Of a DNA stretch of 64,000 nucleotides, positions 52,127 to 62,878 are shown piece after piece. Under the pieces are notes generated by a model, which was not told the DNA's origin, did not search any database, and saw only the letters and a list, made by a program, of their open reading frames with translations. Each line of letters starts with the position of its first letter. Within the stretch, counting starts at the first letter, position 1. The DNA comes from Clostridia bacterium (GTDB lineage Bacteria > Bacillota > Clostridia > Oscillospirales > CAG-272). The DNA is taken from NCBI GenBank assembly GCA_017625755.1, contig JAGAKG010000063.1:1-64000 (forward strand), given 5' to 3'. Made by a program: the position numbers and the translations under genes.

Positions 52127-55111
52127 TTATTTTGTCTTTATATTTTTCTTCTTTTTTCGAATAATTATTACAGTACCTGTTGCTACTGCTGCAACAGCAG
52201 ACAGTGCTCCGCCACTAATCAGTAAAACCTTGGTCAATGAACTACCTTCGTACGGTTTTGGCTCGCTATCATTATCCTGAATTTCACTGCTGTCATTGTC
52301 ATTGCTATCCAAAATTTCGGAGTTCGTGCCAATGCTAAGCACAAAGCAGCACAAATCCTCAAGTTCTTCGTTCGTAAGATCCGCAACGTCACCGTGAGTA
52401 CCCGTGAGATTGCGGGTGGTAAGCACGTCAAGGATAGTTGCCGCGCTACCGTCGTGCAGATAAGGAGCAGTACGCCACGACTCTACCAAAGGAGGCACAA
52501 GAAGACCTCTGGTCTCTGTCTCGGACTGAACAAAGTTTTCATATATGAGCGTGTCTTTACCATAGAGCTCTCCCGAATGGCAGGAAGCGCAATTTGCTTT
52601 TCCGTAGAAAAGCTCCTGACCGCGAAGCGCACTCTCGGAAAGCTTGCCGTCTACAAGATACGGACTTTCCTCTGCCTGAATATTCTTAGTATAAGCATCT
52701 ATTTCAATCATTTCACTTTCAGGTAAGCCGGCATTGAAGCAAATATATTTCAAGCCCGCGCGGTTAGCTGCCATAGTATTCGGGCGAATACCCGTCGCCA
52801 TCACTCTGCCGCGATACCATGATCCAACCATACTTCTTGCCTGCTTTGGAGTTCCCATGCCATCGTTCATATTATCCCAGTTGAGAGCGTCAACTCTGCC
52901 ATCGGGGTGGCAGCTGGCGCAACTTTGCCATTGACCGAAGCAGATAGTAGCATCGTTCCAAAGGCGCTCGCCGCCACGTGTCTCATCCTCTTCGAGAGCG
53001 GTGGTGAGTGACAGTTTATTGAGAGACTCCTCACTCATATCGTAAACGCTTATGCTTCCACTGTAGTAGTTAGCCGTATAGACCTTATTACCGACGATCT
53101 CGATTCCGCGAGGGCCATCTTGACCAAGATCTATCCTCTGCTTCAAGTGTGTTGTAAATGTAAGGTCATTAGCTATATCTTCAGGTGTTTCGAGGTATAT
53201 GTTACCGCCGATATCTCCCGAATATACCTTTTCTATCTTCTCTCTGAGAGCATTTCTATCAATGATCATCATCTCTTGCGTTCCCGCGATAGACAGCACA
53301 ATCTTATCCGCGCTTACATCTATACCCCAAGGGTTAGCTGCACCAAGATCGAGATCGTCCACCAGCATAGTCGCTCTCACTGTATCGTCCGACGTGCGTA
53401 TCTCGGTAATGGCATTGGTGTATATCCAACCTCTGTCAACATGGGTGGTAGACACGTTCCAGCGTCCGATGGCATGTGTTACGTAAAGATACTCACCGTC
53501 GGGTGAAAGAGCAATGTCTTTCAAGTTTGTAGATCCGCTTACCATAGTAATGGTCTTTTTAACTGCCATTTTATTGGCATCAACTACTACAACCTCGCAG
53601 GATATACTTTCGTCATCCATACTTCCCGTGGGAAGGTGTCCGCCAACATAGAGCTTCCCTTCGCGCAGAGCTATGCTCATAGGCTCTCTCGTCACGTATA
53701 AGCCCTCGCTTGCTACCGTTCCTTCCGCAATCTCGCCATTGGTAAGAGGTACAGTCTGAACCGTTCCGTTAAAGCGGTTTGCAATATACAGAGTCATTCC
53801 ATCCTCGCTTATCGCAAGAGCGCTTGGCGTATGTCCGACCGAGACCTCTCCCGCGGAGAGACCCGTTACGGTATTTATTGCCTCAACCTTACCGCAAGAC
53901 ATGCCCGTAGCAACATAAAGATACTTTGCGTCGGGGCTAAGAATAAGGGTATTCGGATTTTGGCTTACCTGAAATTCATTGATAAGCGCGTTATTTACCG
54001 TGTTGATGACCTCTACTGTATTGTTAGTCTCATCTACCACGTACAATCTGTTCGTGAGCATTGTTCCGACAGCGTCGAGCGGAGAACGGTAATTCGCCGT
54101 TTTGGCGGGAGTAAAGGTCTTTTCCTCATCACCGCCCTTGAATACCGAACTGTCGATATCGTCAAGGATCGCTACGTTTGAAACGGCGCTACCGATATTC
54201 ATACTCCAAACGATCTCAGGATCCGTTTCGGGGTTGGAGATTTCGATTACCGAATCCCCGCTGGCACCGCCGTGTCCGCCCCAATTGGCAAACACAATAT
54301 TTCCATTTTCAAGAACGTTTATTGCCGCTACAAATCCAAGTGACACTCCCTCAATATCGTTCTGCTCTATCTTCCAGATCTCTGATCCGTCGCTTGCGCT
54401 AAAGCAGGTTATAGTGTGAGAATCTCCGCCTGCGACGATCGTATCGCCATTATCTTTACGAATAGCGGTAAAGCCCCCCGCGGGATACTCGGCGATCTTT
54501 TCACCACTCGAAGAATATTCCATAGTTTTTGCGACATTCATAGATGCAAGAAGATATGTTCCTTCTTCAGTCTTGTATATCTGGCGTACCTGAGAGTGGC
54601 TATTGCCTCCTGAAGACCAGTCTTCAAGGTCATCAATCACTTTTCGTACATTGCCCTGAATATCAAGCTCTACTATTCTAACATGCGTTTTGTAAGCTTC
54701 ACAAACCAGTACTCCGCCATCAGGCAATACCTGAGACGTGTGATTCTCTCCTCCGCCTGGAATTTCGTATGTCCAAAGCTCCTCGTATCCCGTCTTATTG
54801 GCATAGTCGGGCTTTACCATATATACCGTTGAATGTGTATCGGCTCTGCATGCGAATACGATATTTCCGTTAGGAAGCATATCTGCATCGTTGACTTCAA
54901 CCCAACCTATTTTAGCTTTCGGAAGCGTCCAGAGCGATTCACCGTCCTTGTCAACGACCTCTATCCTGTCCAAGCCGCTTCCGCTTATCAGCGAAACGTG
55001 AGCAACCTCCTCCGAGCCGCTGCAAATCACCACGGTCAGTGTTATCATAACAAGGATCAGCACAATAGACAGTGCTATGGCGGCTTTGGTAAATATTGAT
55101 TTTGATCTCAT
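52127..55111 (-). CDS. Hydrazine synthase beta/gamma-like dihaem protein
   Basis: A 994-residue protein. It has an N-terminal signal anchor (about 8-30) and a PQQ/arylsulfotransferase-like propeller (about 35-330; MLPNGNIVF, VLPDGGVLV). A YVTN-type propeller follows (about 350-700; LYVVDETNNTVEVIN, KYLYVATGMS), then a bacterial dihaem cytochrome c peroxidase-like domain with CASCH at 731-735 and 841-845 and the TAPYLHDGSA His segment. A C-terminal membrane helix and Lys-rich tail follow (about 960-994). Propeller plus dihaem peroxidase fold is the arrangement of HzsB and HzsC, which are fused in some anammox bacteria. The extra first propeller and C-terminal anchor are additions. It is the last gene of the operon, 45 bases after the HzsA-like gene. 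Substrate unknown. Confidence 0.75.
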   Translation of the reverse strand: MRSKSIFTKAAIALSIVLILVMITLTVVICSGSEEVAHVSLISGSGLDRIEVVDKDGESLWTLPKAKIGWVEVNDADMLPNGNIVFACRADTHSTVYMVKPDYANKTGYEELWTYEIPGGGENHTSQVLPDGGVLVCEAYKTHVRIVELDIQGNVRKVIDDLEDWSSGGNSHSQVRQIYKTEEGTYLLASMNVAKTMEYSSSGEKIAEYPAGGFTAIRKDNGDTIVAGGDSHTITCFSASDGSEIWKIEQNDIEGVSLGFVAAINVLENGNIVFANWGGHGGASGDSVIEISNPETDPEIVWSMNIGSAVSNVAILDDIDSSVFKGGDEEKTFTPAKTANYRSPLDAVGTMLTNRLYVVDETNNTVEVINTVNNALINEFQVSQNPNTLILSPDAKYLYVATGMSCGKVEAINTVTGLSAGEVSVGHTPSALAISEDGMTLYIANRFNGTVQTVPLTNGEIAEGTVASEGLYVTREPMSIALREGKLYVGGHLPTGSMDDESISCEVVVVDANKMAVKKTITMVSGSTNLKDIALSPDGEYLYVTHAIGRWNVSTTHVDRGWIYTNAITEIRTSDDTVRATMLVDDLDLGAANPWGIDVSADKIVLSIAGTQEMMIIDRNALREKIEKVYSGDIGGNIYLETPEDIANDLTFTTHLKQRIDLGQDGPRGIEIVGNKVYTANYYSGSISVYDMSEESLNKLSLTTALEEDETRGGERLWNDATICFGQWQSCASCHPDGRVDALNWDNMNDGMGTPKQARSMVGSWYRGRVMATGIRPNTMAANRAGLKYICFNAGLPESEMIEIDAYTKNIQAEESPYLVDGKLSESALRGQELFYGKANCASCHSGELYGKDTLIYENFVQSETETRGLLVPPLVESWRTAPYLHDGSAATILDVLTTRNLTGTHGDVADLTNEELEDLCCFVLSIGTNSEILDSNDNDSSEIQDNDSEPKPYEGSSLTKVLLISGGALSAVAAVATGTVIIIRKKKKNIKTK

Positions 55112-55156
55112 TTAATCAACTCCTATTTTGAATTGCATTTGTGTGCCTTTTATGCT

Positions 55157-58100
55157 TTACCAATCAGGAAGCTCTGAGTAAGCGTGTCCCGGATTTTCTT
55201 TGGTCGGCCAGCCCGGCCACTTTTTATTATGCGAGCTCATCGCTTCTTCGTGATCCTCATCGTAAAGCTTCGTTCCGTTAACAATAGCCGCTCGATTTGC
55301 TGCCTCCATAGCATCGTACAGCGCTACCTTCTCGGTCCTCCATGCATTCATTTCACATTGCTTATATGAATTAATGCCCAAGAGCGGGTTTCCCGGAACG
55401 CTCGTCAATCCCTTCCAGTCAGTGTCGGGATTGGTACGTAACCTCTTAAGCCCCTCCTCTATGAGCGCCAACGCCTTATCGTATGCCTCTCCCGTCTTGC
55501 CCTTCAATATGGGACTTAACTCAGGATTATCAAAGTAAATCGCGCTGTTCAAGCTATTCAGATTAAAGCTACTGAAGTTAAACTGTCTAGTATCGCCTAT
55601 CTGCTGGCGTTCGGCATAGGTAAGCGGAGAACGTCCTCCATTGTTGTAGCTATAGTTGGAATCATAATCTCCGTAATAGGTCGCGTTAAGGTCTACCCAC
55701 TCGGCAATACGACGCTTTTCAGCATCGGTAAGCCGACTTGCGTGAGCCTCGTCCTCGTAGATCATTTTAATTAGCGGGCTATTATAAGATCCCCAATCTT
55801 TCGCGTTATAGAAAGTAGTGTCTCCCGCGCCTATAGCGCCCAACAAATTTTCAAATGGAACGCCCGATATGTTTCTGTCAACCCACAGATTGATATACGC
55901 GGCGTTAAATATAACATCCTTATCGGGAACAAGCGACAGATTTGCTTCTTTCTTTTCATATCCGTGACATTGCAAACAGTTTTTGGTAAATATCGGCTGA
56001 ACCTCAGTCAAAAAGTTCATCGTAGGAAGATCGGTGCAATCCCAATCTGTAAGTATATCCTCTCCCATTTCAAACAACAGCTCTCTCTTTTGTGGAACGT
56101 CGGGGGTATTGACAGCGATGGTCTTGGGAAGATCGCTGCCCTCGGTATACTCCGGATTGTCTATTACTTTGATGTTGGCTTTAAGCGCTATGGGCGTATC
56201 GTATCCCGTTGATGTGGAGGGAGTAGTTTTTCTATCCTCGTGGCATCCGACGCATCCCGTCGTTTCTCCCGATTGAACGAGAGTACCCGATCGCATCGAT
56301 TGGATCATCCTACCATCTTTATCGAGAAGTTGGAAATAGACGAAAGTGTCCTGCGGCACTTCAAAGTACGCGGATCCGTCCTCATATACGGGAACCTCAC
56401 CAATAACTCGCTTTACTTCAAAGCTATGCCAATTCACGCCTGGATTCTGCTGGCCCTGCGCTCCCCACTGAGCTGACTGACTAATATATTTCTTGTCAAC
56501 AGACTCAACAATACGAAGTGTTTTGACCTCTCCTCGCTCAACGCCTTCCATATGTGTTCCCTGATAGACGTCCTGAACGAAGAAAGTACCAACGTCATCG
56601 TTGTAATTTCGGCGTTCGGAGGTCACCATCTCCTCCTCGCGAGGTTGGATAATAGTTGCGTCAAAGGCACTCATATCGGAGTCATCCTCGTATAAGAGAG
56701 TCTCGTTTCCGTAAACATCAACAAGATATATTCCCATTTTGTTGTTCCTACCCGGAATAGTACGGGAAACAAGGAAGTAATTTTCATCGAGGGGTTGAGG
56801 ATCCTCATACTTTACGCCAAGCTTAACATATGCGTCTATATTAATACTATCTCCCGGCTCTCCAATGGCACTCTTGACCGAAGCAGGCCACGTCATCTCG
56901 ACAGCATCTTGACCGTCAACGCCTAATGAACGGTCTATAACGGCGAGCGCTCCCCAAGAAACATCATGTGTGGAAGTGAGGACTGCCAAAACCTTTTGAG
57001 TTCCGGGAATCGCCTTCGCATCAATTACCGCGCCCGTAGGCGAATTGTTTCCATAATAAGTATCCTGCTTCGTGCCATCCTCATAAACCGTCCACAAGCC
57101 CTGAGCAGATCCAAAATCTCTGTCGTTGTATTCCCAACGGTCATAGAGAATGCGACCGTCAGGCAATACGTCGGTAGGTCTTTCAAAGAGGGTACTTGAA
57201 GTTATTTTTACAATATTCGCGCCATCGGATTCCATTCTGTAAATATTGGCGGCAATATGTCTGTTACACATAACGTATTTGGGGTCTCTGGTAGACGAAA
57301 ATACGATATTTCCGCTAGGCATATACATAGGATCCATATCATCGGCGGTAGACAGAGAAGTGAGCTGCTTCGTGCTGACTACGGAAAGTCTGTCATCGCT
57401 CAAAGTATACTCTACAATGTTGTAAACCGAGTCTCTGTTTTCGCGATAGGAAAGAAGAATCCGATCGGAATCGTAAGATACATCGAGGTCTCTGTAAAGT
57501 CCGTCGGGATCTTCAAGAAGCGTAGTGACCTCTCCCGTTCTCAGATTCATTATCTTTACAGCTCCTCCTGGCGTAAAATTGGTCTTATCACTTATCTCGC
57601 CGTTATATGCGGGGAACATATTGTGGGTGTTATGATGGTCCGTCTTATACTGATAGTGTACTGTAAAGATCATAAATCCACTTCCCAAAGCGGGATTGGA
57701 CGCGTTGATCCTATCCTCAAGCCCCTCCATATCCTCTATCCATTTTTCCAGCAGTTCCGAAGTATCGCCAATCTTTGCTATGCGTTCAAGTCTTCGTCTC
57801 ATAGCGTTTACCGCGTCGAGAAGCACCTCGCCGTCGGGATATTCCTCCTCAGAATACTGAACCATAAAATCTTCGATCTTGGTAATCAGACCTTCAAAAT
57901 CCTCTTCCTGCCAGCCTGTATCGTCCATCAACTGTTCAACTGTCAAATGGCTGTCGAGCGCGGGGAAGCAGAAGCTTCCTCTTATATTATCCACACCGAA
58001 CCAAGCCCACCCTTTTATAGTATCGTCAACAAGCTTAATAATAAGCTCATCTCCCTCGTCAAATTTCCCCGTTAGGTCAATTTCAACATGGGTAAATTCC

Positions 58101-59707
58101 CAACTATTCAAACTGGTTTTTATTTTAGCTATCTCCTTACCGGTGTTCGCATCACAAACCGACACATAAGACTTGACGCCTCCGCCGTTAAGGTCCATTG
58201 ATATATAAGGCTCATCAGGATTAAGAATAAATACGGGAGACACGAATTCACCCGTAAAGCTTTCGTTATAGCGTGTCGCGTCATCGGGATCCGTAAGCAC
58301 GCTGTTAAGGTAAAGACTGCCGTGGGGGATAGAGTTTTGGGTGCCGTTTCCGTCAGCGGTAGATGCAATGATACCTGCTCCCCATACCTGCTCCGTCTTA
58401 AACGGGAATATCGTCCCTTGCTCAAAGCTCCAAATAACGCTCTCATAGGTGTAACCGTTAAGCGAGTAATCCTCGTCTATCTCCCCCTTAATTCTGATAT
58501 CGTCAACGAGAATAAATCCCCAGCCTGCCGTGTCTCCGTCAACTATCTTAAGATAAACGCTATCCTCCGAAGAATAAAGTTCTTCGGGAACGGTGATCGT
58601 TACGTTAGTGAACATATTTCCGGACGAATATGTCTCGCCGCTGTCAATTATGCCATTGCTGTTAGCGTCAAATTCATACGTTGGGAATGTCGTGTTATGA
58701 TATCTTACAAGCTCTTTACCGTCAGATACGCGAACAATAGCAACGTAGTTTTTATCGCTTGTTCCGCCGCCTATCTTTAGGGAGAACGTGGGATCTTTCA
58801 TTTTGAATATGGGAGATCTTATCTCTGCCATAATTTTATGCTCATAATTATCCAGGGTATTATCTACGTCAACTGTAGAAAGATAGTAGTCCCCCTGCTT
58901 GTTTATTTCACCGTAAGGATAGTTTCTTTCCTTATCCCAGCAAACGATGGGACACTCACCCAATGCTCCCGACACAACCTCAAAGGGAGCAAGCGCGCCG
59001 TTCTCGAAATTCCAATAGATCATATCGTCGACATTCTCTATCGTCTTGTTTTCATCAACCTCACCGTTCGCGCAAAAATCATCAAAGGTTATATATCCCC
59101 ATTCATCGGTACGGTTGTCAACGATCTTTATAAATACGTATTCGCCAACTACGCCGTCATAGGTCAGATCCCACTCAACGCGGATCATTGTTTCACTATC
59201 ATTCCCTGTCGCTATCCTGACCTCATTACCATAAAGATCACATAAAGCGACAAATGTTTTATCCGAGCTTCCACCGCCGATTAAGAAGTTTACCTTCGCA
59301 TCGGTCAAACGAAACATAGGAGAATGGATCTCACAAATATATTCGCTGGAAGGCTTCGTCATCTTCGTACCCGCTTTTCCAAACTTTTCAGGAGCGTCTT
59401 CCTTAGAATAGTACTCTGTGGTCTCGTAGGTAGACAGATTATATTTCCCTTCCCTAAAGAAAATCGAAGCCGTATCTCCACCGTGATTGTACGGAATATC
59501 CGAAATTATATTTCCGTAAGAACCGCTTACAAGCTTGAAGGGCGCAAGCTCTCCGTCCTCAAAGTCCCAGATAATTGAATATTCATCATCGTCTTCCAAC
59601 GAATCTGCCGCAATGACATTTCCGAGCGAGGTCGTACCTACGGCGCTCAAAACGATTAAGAACGCCATTAGACCTGAACCCAACTTTTTAAAAAATTTCT
59701 TTTTCAT
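55157..59707 (-). CDS. Hydrazine synthase alpha-like dihaem protein
   Basis: A 1516-residue exported protein. After a signal peptide (about 1-34) come three related beta-sandwich modules starting near residues 45, 230 and 421 (WDFEDGELAPF, WNFENGALAPF, WSFEQGTIFPF), then a helical linker (about 582-672). A propeller with the HzsA-type motif VLPDGRILYDRWEYNDRD (about 845) follows, then CVGCH (1152-1156) and CLQCH (1244-1248) in two haem domains and a Trp-rich C-terminus. The propeller-plus-two-haem layout matches HzsA. The Tyr ligand that follows the first CXXCH by four residues in Kuenenia HzsA is Lys1160 here. It starts after AGGAGG, 33 bases from ccsA. I call it an HzsA relative, not proven hydrazine synthase. 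Confidence 0.75.
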   Translation of the reverse strand: MKKKFFKKLGSGLMAFLIVLSAVGTTSLGNVIAADSLEDDDEYSIIWDFEDGELAPFKLVSGSYGNIISDIPYNHGGDTASIFFREGKYNLSTYETTEYYSKEDAPEKFGKAGTKMTKPSSEYICEIHSPMFRLTDAKVNFLIGGGSSDKTFVALCDLYGNEVRIATGNDSETMIRVEWDLTYDGVVGEYVFIKIVDNRTDEWGYITFDDFCANGEVDENKTIENVDDMIYWNFENGALAPFEVVSGALGECPIVCWDKERNYPYGEINKQGDYYLSTVDVDNTLDNYEHKIMAEIRSPIFKMKDPTFSLKIGGGTSDKNYVAIVRVSDGKELVRYHNTTFPTYEFDANSNGIIDSGETYSSGNMFTNVTITVPEELYSSEDSVYLKIVDGDTAGWGFILVDDIRIKGEIDEDYSLNGYTYESVIWSFEQGTIFPFKTEQVWGAGIIASTADGNGTQNSIPHGSLYLNSVLTDPDDATRYNESFTGEFVSPVFILNPDEPYISMDLNGGGVKSYVSVCDANTGKEIAKIKTSLNSWEFTHVEIDLTGKFDEGDELIIKLVDDTIKGWAWFGVDNIRGSFCFPALDSHLTVEQLMDDTGWQEEDFEGLITKIEDFMVQYSEEEYPDGEVLLDAVNAMRRRLERIAKIGDTSELLEKWIEDMEGLEDRINASNPALGSGFMIFTVHYQYKTDHHNTHNMFPAYNGEISDKTNFTPGGAVKIMNLRTGEVTTLLEDPDGLYRDLDVSYDSDRILLSYRENRDSVYNIVEYTLSDDRLSVVSTKQLTSLSTADDMDPMYMPSGNIVFSSTRDPKYVMCNRHIAANIYRMESDGANIVKITSSTLFERPTDVLPDGRILYDRWEYNDRDFGSAQGLWTVYEDGTKQDTYYGNNSPTGAVIDAKAIPGTQKVLAVLTSTHDVSWGALAVIDRSLGVDGQDAVEMTWPASVKSAIGEPGDSINIDAYVKLGVKYEDPQPLDENYFLVSRTIPGRNNKMGIYLVDVYGNETLLYEDDSDMSAFDATIIQPREEEMVTSERRNYNDDVGTFFVQDVYQGTHMEGVERGEVKTLRIVESVDKKYISQSAQWGAQGQQNPGVNWHSFEVKRVIGEVPVYEDGSAYFEVPQDTFVYFQLLDKDGRMIQSMRSGTLVQSGETTGCVGCHEDRKTTPSTSTGYDTPIALKANIKVIDNPEYTEGSDLPKTIAVNTPDVPQKRELLFEMGEDILTDWDCTDLPTMNFLTEVQPIFTKNCLQCHGYEKKEANLSLVPDKDVIFNAAYINLWVDRNISGVPFENLLGAIGAGDTTFYNAKDWGSYNSPLIKMIYEDEAHASRLTDAEKRRIAEWVDLNATYYGDYDSNYSYNNGGRSPLTYAERQQIGDTRQFNFSSFNLNSLNSAIYFDNPELSPILKGKTGEAYDKALALIEEGLKRLRTNPDTDWKGLTSVPGNPLLGINSYKQCEMNAWRTEKVALYDAMEAANRAAIVNGTKLYDEDHEEAMSSHNKKWPGWPTKENPGHAYSELPDW

Positions 59708-59740
59708 TTTTTCCTCCTGATAATGATAACTTTTTTAAGG

Positions 59741-60520
59741 TTAAGTATAGGTATGAAGCGAGCCTGCTACATTGGGCAGAACATTCACACAAAGGAACGT
59801 GAAGATGAGAGCGAAAAAGCCAAGAACAGCAAATACTCCTGATGCCTTTTTCATTTTCTTGACACGTCTGGCGTGAAAATAACATAAATACGCAACAACG
59901 GTTATCAAAGACCATACCTCCTTGATATCCCACGTCCAATAGTTGCCCCAAACCTGGTCTGCCCAAAGCGCCCCAAGCAACATACCGCAGACCATAAAGG
60001 GAAAGGCGATTCGAAGTATTACGCAAGATGCCTCCTCGTATATGTCCCACTCGCGCCTTTTGATATATCCGATAACCAATACCAAAAACGCGACCACACA
60101 AAGCGCGTAGGAGAGGACGTAGCTAAAAACGTGAGGCACAAAATAAGGCGAGCGAAGCGCAGGTGCCAATGTCCAATGCATATTTCTGTCCATAAACAGG
60201 GTTCCGACAAGCGGGAGCATCGCGCCAAAACAAAAATAAGGCGAAAGCCATTTCATATCGGCTCGAAATCTGATTATCACCACCATAAGTATCACGAACA
60301 AAAGCGATATATCGCTAAGCACCTGATACATACTCGCGAATGGCGGATATCCGTTGATATACCAATTCTTGACGAAAATACCAAGATTGGCAACCCAGCC
60401 AACGGCAGAAAGAATATATGCGAGCTTCTGCTTTTTAAAAATAAACGCAACTCCCGCGGAGAAATAGCTACAAACGGCAATTATACATATCACCGTCGCA
60501 AAAACCTCAAGCACAGTCAT
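59741..60520 (-). CDS. ccsA: Cytochrome c assembly protein CcsA/ResC-like
   Basis: A 259-residue membrane protein with about eight helices. The haem-handling WWD motif is clear (WGNYWTWDIKEVW, about 192-204). Conserved His residues lie in the SPYFVPHVFSY segment (about 128) and near the C-terminus (SLHTYT). It is the System II synthase component that presents haem to CXXCH apoproteins outside the membrane. It overlaps the ResB-like gene by 4 bases and precedes two dihaem proteins, its obvious clients. Confidence 0.9.
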   Translation of the reverse strand: MTVLEVFATVICIIAVCSYFSAGVAFIFKKQKLAYILSAVGWVANLGIFVKNWYINGYPPFASMYQVLSDISLLFVILMVVIIRFRADMKWLSPYFCFGAMLPLVGTLFMDRNMHWTLAPALRSPYFVPHVFSYVLSYALCVVAFLVLVIGYIKRREWDIYEEASCVILRIAFPFMVCGMLLGALWADQVWGNYWTWDIKEVWSLITVVAYLCYFHARRVKKMKKASGVFAVLGFFALIFTFLCVNVLPNVAGSLHTYT

Positions 60521-61371
60521 AATCTATCCCTTCCTTTCGGTTTGATAAGCAAAAAGCATTCTATAAAGGTGCCTACGATCGTCATCCACATGCCGACAGC
60601 AAAGGGAATGTTTGCGGGGTCATTTTTTACGTACAGATTAACATATTGCATACCTTCCGTATCATAGCCCATAAGGTAGAATTTCCAACCCTTATATGTA
60701 TACGGTTTATTTACGCCAAGCTCCGCTTTCTTTATCTCTCCTTCGTCGTATATCTGAAATACCGCAGTATAATTTTTATCAATTTCTTCATTCTTTACGA
60801 GTACATATCCGTTTTCTAAAGTGTAATATTTAACATATTCGCCGTCTTTTTTCAATTCAACCGCCGATACCGTTCCATATTCACCCATATCATATATCCC
60901 ATTTCGATTTTGGGATACGGTTTCTATAACAATATTTTTTTCGACAAAATCGGTTTTGCTGTTATATAAGCAATACTCCGCGTCGTATTTTTCCACATCA
61001 AAGGACGCTACGGATATATAATATCCGAATTCCATAAAAGCACCGTCATTCTGCTGAACCTCTCCATAAAACGAATCGGGATCTACCGGAATAGCGAAAG
61101 AAGTTTCCTTCAAGGTCAATGCGGAAACGATCGAGCAGACAATGATAACAAGAACGCCCGTATGACAAATATAAAAACCCAATTTTTTTAACGAAAATTT
61201 GCATCTTACAAGGCAAATTATAAGAACTATAGTAAAGACGACTATAGCGACGATGAAAAATATGGATCTATGATAGCTATCCCATATGCCAAAAGCGGCG
61301 CAAAGAGATCCAATAACAAGGAACACGCCAATTATTGCCATAATCCAGACTGAGGCTTTGAGCAGTTTCAT
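60517..61371 (-). CDS. resB: Cytochrome c biogenesis protein ResB/Ccs1-like (short)
   Basis: A 284-residue protein with four hydrophobic segments (about 8-30, 36-56, 66-88 and 258-277) and a large extracytoplasmic loop ending in a ResB-type stretch (NKPYTYKGWKFYLMGYD, then QYVNLYVKNDPANIPFAVG). The segment around GFYICHTG holds the membrane His typical of Ccs1/ResB. It is shorter than Bacillus ResB (about 540), closer to the minimal forms in fused CcsBA. It is first gene of the operon, behind GTAGGAG. Confidence 0.8.
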   Translation of the reverse strand: MKLLKASVWIMAIIGVFLVIGSLCAAFGIWDSYHRSIFFIVAIVVFTIVLIICLVRCKFSLKKLGFYICHTGVLVIIVCSIVSALTLKETSFAIPVDPDSFYGEVQQNDGAFMEFGYYISVASFDVEKYDAEYCLYNSKTDFVEKNIVIETVSQNRNGIYDMGEYGTVSAVELKKDGEYVKYYTLENGYVLVKNEEIDKNYTAVFQIYDEGEIKKAELGVNKPYTYKGWKFYLMGYDTEGMQYVNLYVKNDPANIPFAVGMWMTIVGTFIECFLLIKPKGRDRL

Positions 61372-61407
61372 TTTTGCAACTCCTACAATTTTATAATACG
61401 TAAAAAC

Positions 61408-61436
61408 ATTATAACATAGTTATGTTTACTTGTCAA
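61408..61436 (-). promoter_or_regulatory. Promoter of the c-haem operon with embedded dyad
   Basis: On the minus strand, TTGACA (complement 61431-61436), 17 bases, TATAAT (complement 61408-61413). The 14-bp dyad AACATA-N2-TATGTT (61413-61426) lies in the spacer, touching the -10. Confidence 0.85.
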
Positions 61437-61467
61437 TAACTCGCCGAAAAATTTTGTTTAAAAGAGC

Positions 61468-61501
61468 AGAACGCTCAAACATAATTATGTTTGAGCGTTC
61501 T
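61468..61501 (-). terminator. 34-bp perfect palindrome, terminator-like
   Basis: Perfect arms of 17 bp centred at 61484/61485 (AGAACGCTCAAACATAA and its complement). The centre repeats the AACATA-N2-TATGTT dyad of the neighbouring promoter. It lies downstream of the glycoside hydrolase gene and is followed by TGCTCTTTT on the minus strand. Confidence 0.75.
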
Positions 61502-61603
61502 TACCTTTTATTCATAATAATAAAGCAATACAATAATCAACAACTCATACTTTTCAAAAAACAGTTTTTTGTGAAACTGTATAAAAATTGTTTTTGCGGT
61601 AAA

Positions 61604-62878
61604 TCAACCCTCGATACAATACAGCTTCATTTGTCCCGGCGCATACCAATCTCCGCAAATATACTCATTATCCGTTACATTAGTGTATTTACCGCAAACC
61701 AAATTACTGTTCCAATCCCACTGAAGCACAGATTTTGCCTTCTTTGATACGTGGATACGAATAAGTCCGGTTTCGGTAGGCGAATTGTTGACAACCGCAA
61801 CATATTTTTTACCTTCCAGCTCAAAAAAGCCTATCACCGCTTTAAGGTTATGCGGACTTGATACGTCCATAACCAGATTGTCGCTCTTATCCTTTTCCCA
61901 CAGCTCAAACTCGCCGTAGGCTTTTCCGTAATGAAGCGTTTTTATCCACTTGGCGCGGTTGAAAAAGTCTCCGAACTGGTGCAAGAAATACTTGTTTGTA
62001 CGCGCAAGCCAATTAAAGGTCTCTGTACGCTCACCAAACGCGTCAATAGGGGCGAGTCTGTAATTCAGTCTGCATTCGCGTTCATAGATATGGAACCACA
62101 TAATTCCCTCCATACCCGAAGCAACCGCGGTACTCAACTGCCAACGCAAATCGTCTTCATTCGGGCAACGGTACTTCCAATGACCTACGGAAAGCAAGGT
62201 AGTCCACGGAGAAATCCCCATACGCTCGGCGGCTTCCCGATAGAGGTGCAAATTGCGGAAATACATATGTATTCCTTCCTCTTCCGAGTCAGGCTTGGGA
62301 TCGCGATCATATCCAAACAGCTTCAGGTGCGCTTCCTTTTCCATTTCGGGATTCAGCTGAGTATAGCAATCATAGCTTAACACTTTCAAATTCGCGTCCT
62401 TTATCATCTTTGTTGCCCAATCCAGAAACGACGGCGCTTTTAATATCGTCTCCTCCTGCCCCTCCCAATATGGAAGAAAATTCAAAAAGGGAGTCAGATT
62501 GGGCGCCAACTCAAGCTGTATGTTGTGCGCGGCAACGCAGTCGGGAAAATCATTTCCCCTCTCCGGTTCATCTCCTATCTCAAAGCCAAAAACCGCAGGG
62601 TGCTTCCCAAAGTCCTCATAAGCGGCTGCCGAGCGGGCTCTGTATTCCTCGGGGCGCTCCGATGCGCCCTTCCAGAAAGTGCGTTTGTCACACATTATCA
62701 CCTTAATGTCATTCTCGGCGCAGGCATCCAATATCTCAAGTATGGTTTTCTTATCCGTGTCCTCTGTGATATTGGGGCTGCTTGCCATTGTCATACCAAG
62801 CTCCACCCAATCCTTTACATCCTTGGCTGAAAGCTCTCCCGTCGTATAATTCCAAAAGCCTATCGGAAATCTGTTCAT
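61604..62878 (-). CDS. Putative TIM-barrel glycoside hydrolase
   Basis: A 424-residue protein without signal peptide. The N-terminal part (about 1-320) has barrel-like spacing with GFEIGDEPERG (about 98), where Glu residues would fit an acid/base of a GH-A type clan enzyme, and later EGIMWFHIYERE with another candidate Glu. The C-terminal 90 residues form a beta-sandwich (AVIGFFELEGKKYVAVVNN). The start follows AATGGAGG. It follows an oxidoreductase remnant, so it was perhaps part of a sugar-catabolic operon. The family cannot be fixed by eye. Confidence 0.6.
   Translation of the reverse strand: MNRFPIGFWNYTTGELSAKDVKDWVELGMTMASSPNITEDTDKKTILEILDACAENDIKVIMCDKRTFWKGASERPEEYRARSAAAYEDFGKHPAVFGFEIGDEPERGNDFPDCVAAHNIQLELAPNLTPFLNFLPYWEGQEETILKAPSFLDWATKMIKDANLKVLSYDCYTQLNPEMEKEAHLKLFGYDRDPKPDSEEEGIHMYFRNLHLYREAAERMGISPWTTLLSVGHWKYRCPNEDDLRWQLSTAVASGMEGIMWFHIYERECRLNYRLAPIDAFGERTETFNWLARTNKYFLHQFGDFFNRAKWIKTLHYGKAYGEFELWEKDKSDNLVMDVSSPHNLKAVIGFFELEGKKYVAVVNNSPTETGLIRIHVSKKAKSVLQWDWNSNLVCGKYTNVTDNEYICGDWYAPGQMKLYCIEG

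Follow-up and report, generated by a model that had tools for sequence, protein, structure and literature searches.

A hydrazine synthase-related c-haem operon of Clostridia with its own maturation genes and probable links to carbohydrate catabolism

The 64,000-nucleotide stretch analysed here (positions 1 to 64,000 of contig JAGAKG010000063.1 from the Clostridia bacterium assembly GCA_017625755.1; henceforth the window) carries on its reverse strand an operon of four genes: these code for a ResB-like protein, a CcsA and two large c-haem proteins related to the alpha subunit and to the fused beta and gamma subunits of hydrazine synthase (HZS). We lean, by a modest degree, towards the view that they specify a cell-surface or extracellular redox enzyme system of carbohydrate catabolism. 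The leader of the operon is duplicated in front of a catabolic operon, and genes like those of the latter accompany alpha-like genes in several phyla. The system is a c-type haem enzyme with private maturation genes, found in bacteria seemingly unable to make haem, and it bears on the open question of what the relatives of HZS do and how this key anammox enzyme originated.

Organization of the operon

The original prediction had described four leftward genes, the first two overlapping by 4 bases and the others following at gaps of 33 and 45, in a Clostridia-type genome; the coordinates, strand and lengths proved exact and the label fits the host. The operon and the region ahead of it comprise:

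61388..61510, minus strand: 123-bp leader, made up of a palindromic stem-loop (61468-61501) and the promoter
61408..61436, minus strand: perfect extended sigma-A-type promoter, TTGACA-17-TATAAT with TG (12/12)
60517..61371, minus strand: ResB-like protein of cytochrome c maturation, 284 aa, first gene of the operon (Pfam ResB, 1.9e-10)
59741..60520, minus strand: CcsA, WWD-type haem handling/cytochrome c synthase protein, 259 aa, overlap of 4 (Pfam Cytochrom_C_asm, 4.3e-27)
55157..59707, minus strand: alpha-like subunit, 1516 aa, gap of 33 (Pfam HZS_alpha, 3.9e-33)
52127..55111, minus strand: fused beta-gamma-like subunit, 994 aa, gap of 45 (HzsB/HzsC profile matches)

A palindrome, ACATAACTATGT, overlaps the -10 element of the promoter. 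Clostridial loci of this kind are of two types. In the window type (the window, genomes G016 and G134, and Bacilliculturomica massiliensis), alpha comes ahead of beta-gamma; in the second, beta-gamma comes first and the C-terminal modules are different. ResB stands beside CcsA in every window-type locus and in most loci of the second group, and the ResB-CcsA-alpha-beta-gamma neighbourhood recurs in other genera of the family and in the cultured Bacilliculturomica massiliensis, where the order is alpha-ResB-CcsA-beta-gamma. Across 196 genomes of the window's family, CcsA was found in 16/16 alpha-positive as against 3/180 alpha-negative genomes (Fisher p ~8e-21; 4e-9 at the genus level), with exactly one CcsA in each alpha-positive genome. 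The adjacency elsewhere and this co-occurrence argue that the four-gene set is not due to chance. Contamination or a chimaeric assembly is unlikely, because genomes of 8 genera share the arrangement and contamination stands at 1.07%.

A duplicated leader and a linked catabolic operon

A second copy of the leader is present in the window genome (G000:C33:30510-30629; L125 8510-8629), with 118/123 bp identical (96%), between the gene for a GntR/UTRA regulator (L125 7808-8527) and a catabolic operon. The latter codes, in order, for a deoxyribose-phosphate aldolase (DeoC, above cut-off), a xylulokinase-like FGGY kinase, an iron-dependent alcohol dehydrogenase (ADH), a glycyl radical enzyme (GRE) of uncertain substrate and its activase. 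Two full-length copies of the leader are present in the window genome and none in the rest of the 196 family genomes; with so few, its interpretation as a genome-wide repeat was rejected. An Rfam search with the leader gave no score near the gathering threshold.

In genome G134 the two gene sets are united on one strand: GntR, DeoC, FGGY kinase and ADH are followed by ResB, CcsA, alpha and beta-gamma (here bearing a dockerin), and these in turn by the activase and the GRE. Its GntR, DeoC, FGGY kinase, ADH and activase are respectively 49%, 56%, 45%, 49% and 45% identical to their orthologues in the window-genome operon. Comparable arrangements were found in other phyla: IclR-SDR-DeoC-FGGY-alpha in Kiritimatiellae (L064), alpha-IclR-SDR-DeoC in an Akkermansia metagenome-assembled genome (MAG; L048), and alpha with a nearby ADH-DeoC pair in Lentisphaerae (L066). 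Other clostridial copies adjoin regulators of sugar type or sugar genes, namely LacI, AraC, Gfo/Idh and xylose-isomerase-like genes. Recurrence of the same gene set in several phyla and the duplicated leader together make a strong joint case for a link to carbohydrates.

The linked operon invites comparison with the GRM5 fucose/rhamnose loci (PMC4207490), with which it shares the reaction types of kinase, aldolase, alcohol dehydrogenase and GRE. It differs in having a DeoC-type rather than a class II aldolase, a GRE that falls under all named cut-offs, and a tie to an extracellular haem complex; further, no shell proteins were noticed in the 18 kb of L125. An interpretation of the DeoC aldolase in terms of fucose/rhamnose, by way of the planctomycetal microcompartments, was dropped, the aldolase of those being class II.

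Two further observations concern these loci. The GREs of L125:12204-14255 and L023:51-2249 have a shortened N-terminus and score under all named NCBIfam cut-offs. Upstream of the GntR operon, L125:776-4538 codes for two proteins with an RQLFVDDFLI motif that are possibly glycoside-hydrolase-like, with no NCBIfam match.

Relationship to hydrazine synthase

The alpha-like protein consists of a signal peptide, three beta-sandwich repeats, a TolB-type propeller, the HZS_alpha domain and a c-type cytochrome domain. The beta-gamma-like protein is composed of a signal or transmembrane segment, an extra Mala_s_1/3no2-type propeller, an HzsB-type propeller, a di-haem gamma domain and a C-terminal transmembrane segment. 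Their features are:

57938..59587, minus strand: three beta-sandwich repeats, alpha residues ~41-590, with repeated WxFE..G...PF stretches
56237..56533, minus strand: HZS_alpha (PF18582) middle domain, alpha residues 1059-1157 (Pfam)
56240..56254, minus strand: alpha-I haem motif CVGCH, residues 1152-1156, followed by EDRK with no Tyr at +4
55964..55978, minus strand: alpha-II haem motif CLQCH, residues 1244-1248
55742..55744, minus strand: His1322, counterpart of alpha-His772, the alpha-II distal ligand in HZS (alignment HASRLTDAE / LHNKFLTQDE)
53042..54085, minus strand: HzsB-type seven-bladed propeller, beta-gamma residues 343-690 (NF052340, 5.1e-23; PDB 5c2v_B, E 7.3e-31)
53414..53455, minus strand: conserved insertion loop STTHVDRGWIYTN, about residues 553-566, counterpart of the HZS tunnel loop
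52907..52921, minus strand: gamma-I haem motif CASCH, residues 731-735
52577..52591, minus strand: gamma-II haem motif CASCH, residues 841-845

Profile and structure searches against HzsA, HzsB and HzsC bore out the predicted HZS-type architecture, and the best matches were not confined to unrelated generic cytochrome families. By profile the three subunits are the best PDB matches: HzsA (5c2v_A) is at the top for the alpha family (E 3e-35), while for the beta-gamma family HzsB (7e-31) and HzsC (9e-29) lead the list, above generic propellers and peroxidases; single-sequence searches with the window proteins likewise matched 5c2v chains A, B and C. By fold, HzsA and the HzsB propeller come first. 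Modelled with AlphaFold, the alpha core (pLDDT 89.8) has 5c2v_A as its best PDB match in Foldseek (TM 0.65/0.61), covering the propeller, middle and cytochrome domains, and aligns with it at VIA Z 33.2 over 581 residues (rmsd 2.8); TolB propellers score 25.9, over 250 residues. For the beta propeller model, the alignment with 5c2v_B covers 337 residues at Z 43.0 (runner-up 35.8). Since the gamma part of the beta-gamma model is of low quality (pLDDT 68), the gamma domain was judged by sequence only. For beta-gamma, Pfam gives two propellers, one of Mala_s_1 type and one of lactonase/YVTN type, together with weak matches to CCP_MauG/cytochrome c; in NCBIfam its best matches are to the beta-gamma fusion of hydrazine synthase (3.8e-26) and to the beta subunit (5.1e-23), both below equivalog cut-offs. 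The insertion loop has the signature TTxxDRGWxxTN; in HZS, this blade insertion sits in the gamma-alpha tunnel (PMC12607021, PMC12758564).

The neighbouring HZS_alpha and fused beta-gamma genes place the pair in the HZS superfamily, and the alpha/beta/gamma architecture with HZS_alpha and the CXXCH count of two plus two, as originally predicted, is that of a functional HZS. The key residues agree only in part. Taking the roles of the key residues from the literature (PMC12607021, PMC12758564) and the Kuenenia sequence from the PDB alignments (5c2v), we found alpha-Tyr591, the proximal alpha-I haem ligand in the CxxCHxxxY motif, to be missing, with Lys in its place (CSGCHYGSY in Kuenenia vs CVGCHEDRK in the window); Tyr at +4 after the alpha-I motif occurs in 1/87 homologues. 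The gamma-His144 site has Ala in the window and A, V, I, T, S or F in nearly all relatives, with Trp solely in L058. At the site of gamma-Cys165, the third haem cysteine of HZS, pairwise alignment gives Cys in the window and L023 and Leu, Met or Gln in other relatives, and MAFFT a gap; as aligned, this residue is not conserved in the family. The second histidines are kept: that of alpha-II is His1322, invariant across the Clostridia set and variable in the wider family. The gamma-II one lies in a THG motif in the window type, is lost from the second Clostridia group, and corresponds to what we take to be His332, a gamma-II bis-His ligand of HZS.

The NCBIfam equivalog cut-offs are far from reached (bits/cut-off: HzsA 27/800, HzsB 82/560, HzsC 49/625, fusion 92/1250), and in the beta-gamma tree HZS forms an outlying branch of ~3 changes per site. 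With alpha-Tyr591 and gamma-His144 missing and gamma-Cys165 unconserved despite the kept architecture, the operon product would be a member of the HZS superfamily that is not a hydrazine synthase and would not make hydrazine. No HAO-type multi-haem match was obtained in 16 genomes; the control was silent too, and hence this is not evidence of absence.

In sum of parts, the window proteins share with the Kuenenia stuttgartiensis HzsABC complex (PDB 5c2v) an alpha propeller with HZS_alpha and cytochrome domains and two c-haems, a beta propeller with tunnel loop, a gamma di-haem domain and both second histidines. They differ from it in lacking alpha-Tyr591, gamma-His144 and a conserved gamma-Cys165 and in the fusion of beta with gamma, and add an extra propeller, the beta-sandwiches, a dedicated ResB-CcsA pair and a probable carbohydrate regulon. 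The non-anammox HZS homologues of clades I-IV (PMC12758564) likewise have adjacent alpha and fused beta-gamma genes and lack the key HZS residues. Clades I-III, unlike the window, have Trp at the gamma-His144 site, and clade I has extra c554 haems; for these clades neither a Ccs pair nor a function is reported, nor an occurrence in Clostridia. The window pair is probably nearest to clade IV, through the Sedimentisphaerales relative L092.

Seven residues are invariant in 78/78 alpha homologues: Cys814, Arg857, Trp858, Tyr860, Asp862 and His914 of the propeller, and Glu1148. Conservation makes them candidates for an active site beside alpha-I. The Mala-type propeller is on beta-gamma in the window and on alpha in L087 and L089; this swapping between the two suggests that the proteins work together. 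In the latter loci (Lentisphaeria/Planctomycetia), it is near or fused to the alpha N-terminus (L087:2555-3316, L089:8491-9285).

Maturation and haem supply

The ResB-CcsA pair with its cytochrome c assembly domain corresponds to System II (Ccs) maturation; CcsA matches NCBIfam CcsB/TIGR03144 at 4.7e-36, under the family cut-off. The idea that the complex brings its own maturation genes is upheld. Ferrochelatase (PF00762) gave no match in the 16 alpha-positive genomes, with the control positive in 8/14, and AhbD gave none above cut-off in the alpha-positive genomes. From the former we conclude that haem is probably scavenged, the host cells probably acquiring it from their surroundings.

Proposed function and alternatives

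The following course of events would account for these observations. ResB and CcsA would attach haem to the two secreted proteins, which would assemble outside the cell into an alpha/beta-gamma complex built like HZS. The HzsB-type propeller with its tunnel loop would connect the gamma di-haem site, of the peroxidase/MauG superfamily, with the alpha-I haem beneath the alpha propeller. The complex would most likely perform a redox reaction on a carbohydrate, either free or part of a glycan held by the beta-sandwich domains, and the product would enter the cell to be processed by the FGGY kinase, the DeoC-type aldolase and the Fe-dependent ADH, joined in these Clostridia by the GRE. The haem complex and catabolic operon would belong to one GntR-linked regulon. 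Complex formation, surface location, GntR regulation and the carbohydrate substrate are all what we infer; the predicted extracellular HZS-related complex with two plus two c-haems in a fermentative member of the Bacillota is supported.

Several points weigh against a role in carbohydrate catabolism. The G134 GRE shares just 27% identity with its counterpart in the window genome and may hence act on a different compound. Among the 80 named loci used for counts of alpha neighbours, DeoC is near alpha in 3, a modest signal (chance probability 0.002-0.03), and the second Clostridia group and most loci of the Planctomycetes-Verrucomicrobia-Chlamydiae (PVC) group have no DeoC cluster nearby. We know of no characterised enzyme in the HZS-like family. 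The beta-sandwich, N-terminal to alpha in 25/80 loci, has no PDB match and no Pfam family, so that sugar binding is a guess from the look of the domain.

The best of the alternatives, an unlikely one in our estimate, is a role akin to MauG or cytochrome c peroxidase: gamma-I would reduce H2O2 or use it to oxidise a partner, protecting an anaerobe at oxic surfaces, with alpha and the propellers as scaffold. The gamma domain does share a superfamily with MauG, MbnH and the bacterial cytochrome c peroxidases and weakly matches CCP_MauG, MbnH and cytochrome c551 peroxidases. HzsC, however, outscores all peroxidases (E 9e-29 vs 7e-17), the position of the catalytic Trp/His (the gamma-His144 site; PMC12758564) is mostly Ala, Val, Ile, Thr or Ser, those enzymes are without an alpha partner, and the operon is linked to carbohydrate genes with no stress genes noticed nearby. 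We give still less credence to a surface cytochrome that would serve as donor or acceptor in extracellular electron transfer with no chemistry of its own: extracellular c-haems, dockerin or membrane anchoring and an anaerobic host would suit it, whereas the haems are only four, they sit in enzyme-type folds, and the invariant non-haem residues of alpha resemble an active site. NO, hydroxylamine or N-N chemistry as in HZS is highly improbable, since the closeness of the HzsA and HzsB folds, the four haems, the tunnel loop and the second histidines are set against the missing alpha-Tyr591 and gamma-His144, the unconserved gamma-Cys165, the very long outlying branch of HZS and the sugar gene context; this chemistry, which the original prediction had left open, found no support. 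Peroxide, NO and pure electron-transfer roles are possible ones to which the context lends nothing.

A broader proposal, which we advance tentatively and rate below the carbohydrate role, is that outside anammox the HZS superfamily is a widespread class of haem enzymes that act beyond the cytoplasm in the carbohydrate catabolism of gut and sediment bacteria, with an unrecognised Cys/His/Arg/Trp/Tyr/Asp active site close to a c-haem in the propeller of alpha. On this view a haem complex that processed sugars would be the ancestor of the hydrazine synthase of anammox bacteria. The operon offers a compact and self-contained version of an HZS relative in Clostridia that live by fermentation, among them a cultured strain, and its ties, through regulation and operon structure, to a pathway of defined type make the role of HZS relatives directly testable.

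Distribution and earlier reports

To our knowledge, HZS was long regarded as being without homologues. In 2025, co-localised alpha and beta-gamma homologues were described outside anammox, mainly in Planctomycetota and Desulfobacterota (for example Syntrophobacter, Thermogutta, Aquisphaera and Anaerohalosphaera) and with no function (PMC12758564), and a broad family with other substrates had been suggested (PMC10732223). The relationship to HZS alone is thus not new, non-anammox pairs being already in print (PMC12758564); what is new is the pair with a dedicated ResB-CcsA in several genera of Clostridia and in the cultured Bacilliculturomica massiliensis, the missing ferrochelatase match in 16 carriers, and the tie to carbohydrate genes by leader and gene neighbourhood.

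Alpha is found in 16/196 genomes and 8/71 genera of the window's family, and four other species of the window's genus are without it; across the phylum HZS_alpha is rare (3/398). A scan of named genomes yielded hundreds of alpha relatives, mostly in Planctomycetota, Verrucomicrobiota, Lentisphaerota, Kiritimatiellota, Hydrogenedentota and Bacteroidota. Beta-gamma is near alpha in 10/80 of the named loci, and the Ccs pair in Bacilliculturomica only. Those of Bacilliculturomica massiliensis (62%) and of Lentisphaeraceae (56%) are nearest. A tree of alpha proteins groups the window type, with full support, with Lentisphaeraceae, and places the second Clostridia type among other planctomycetes; these split positions make it probable that these Clostridia acquired alpha on more than one occasion.

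Some features of individual loci may be added. In their C-terminal part, the alpha proteins of the second Clostridia type (L024-L030) have a jelly-roll like that of sialate O-acetylesterases (7kmm_A) and also an F5/8-type-looking C-terminal module, both absent in the window type. In another lineage of the phylum, G257 (L116:7055-11612) and G435 (L117) have alpha and a beta-gamma-like gene whose 526-aa product has one CXXCH, with no CcsA nearby. The Akkermansia muciniphila MAG (L048) falls among Kiritimatiellae-like sequences in the tree, and its species name may be wrong. Loci L047, L065, L080 and L110 (Planctomycetota, Verrucomicrobiota and an unassigned MAG) have 2-4 tandem alpha-type paralogues with one beta-gamma gene near. 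In the window itself, a 424-aa protein encoded upstream of the operon (61604-62878) is glycoside hydrolase-like by eye, with no Pfam match, and a terminator-like stem-loop lies between its gene and the operon.

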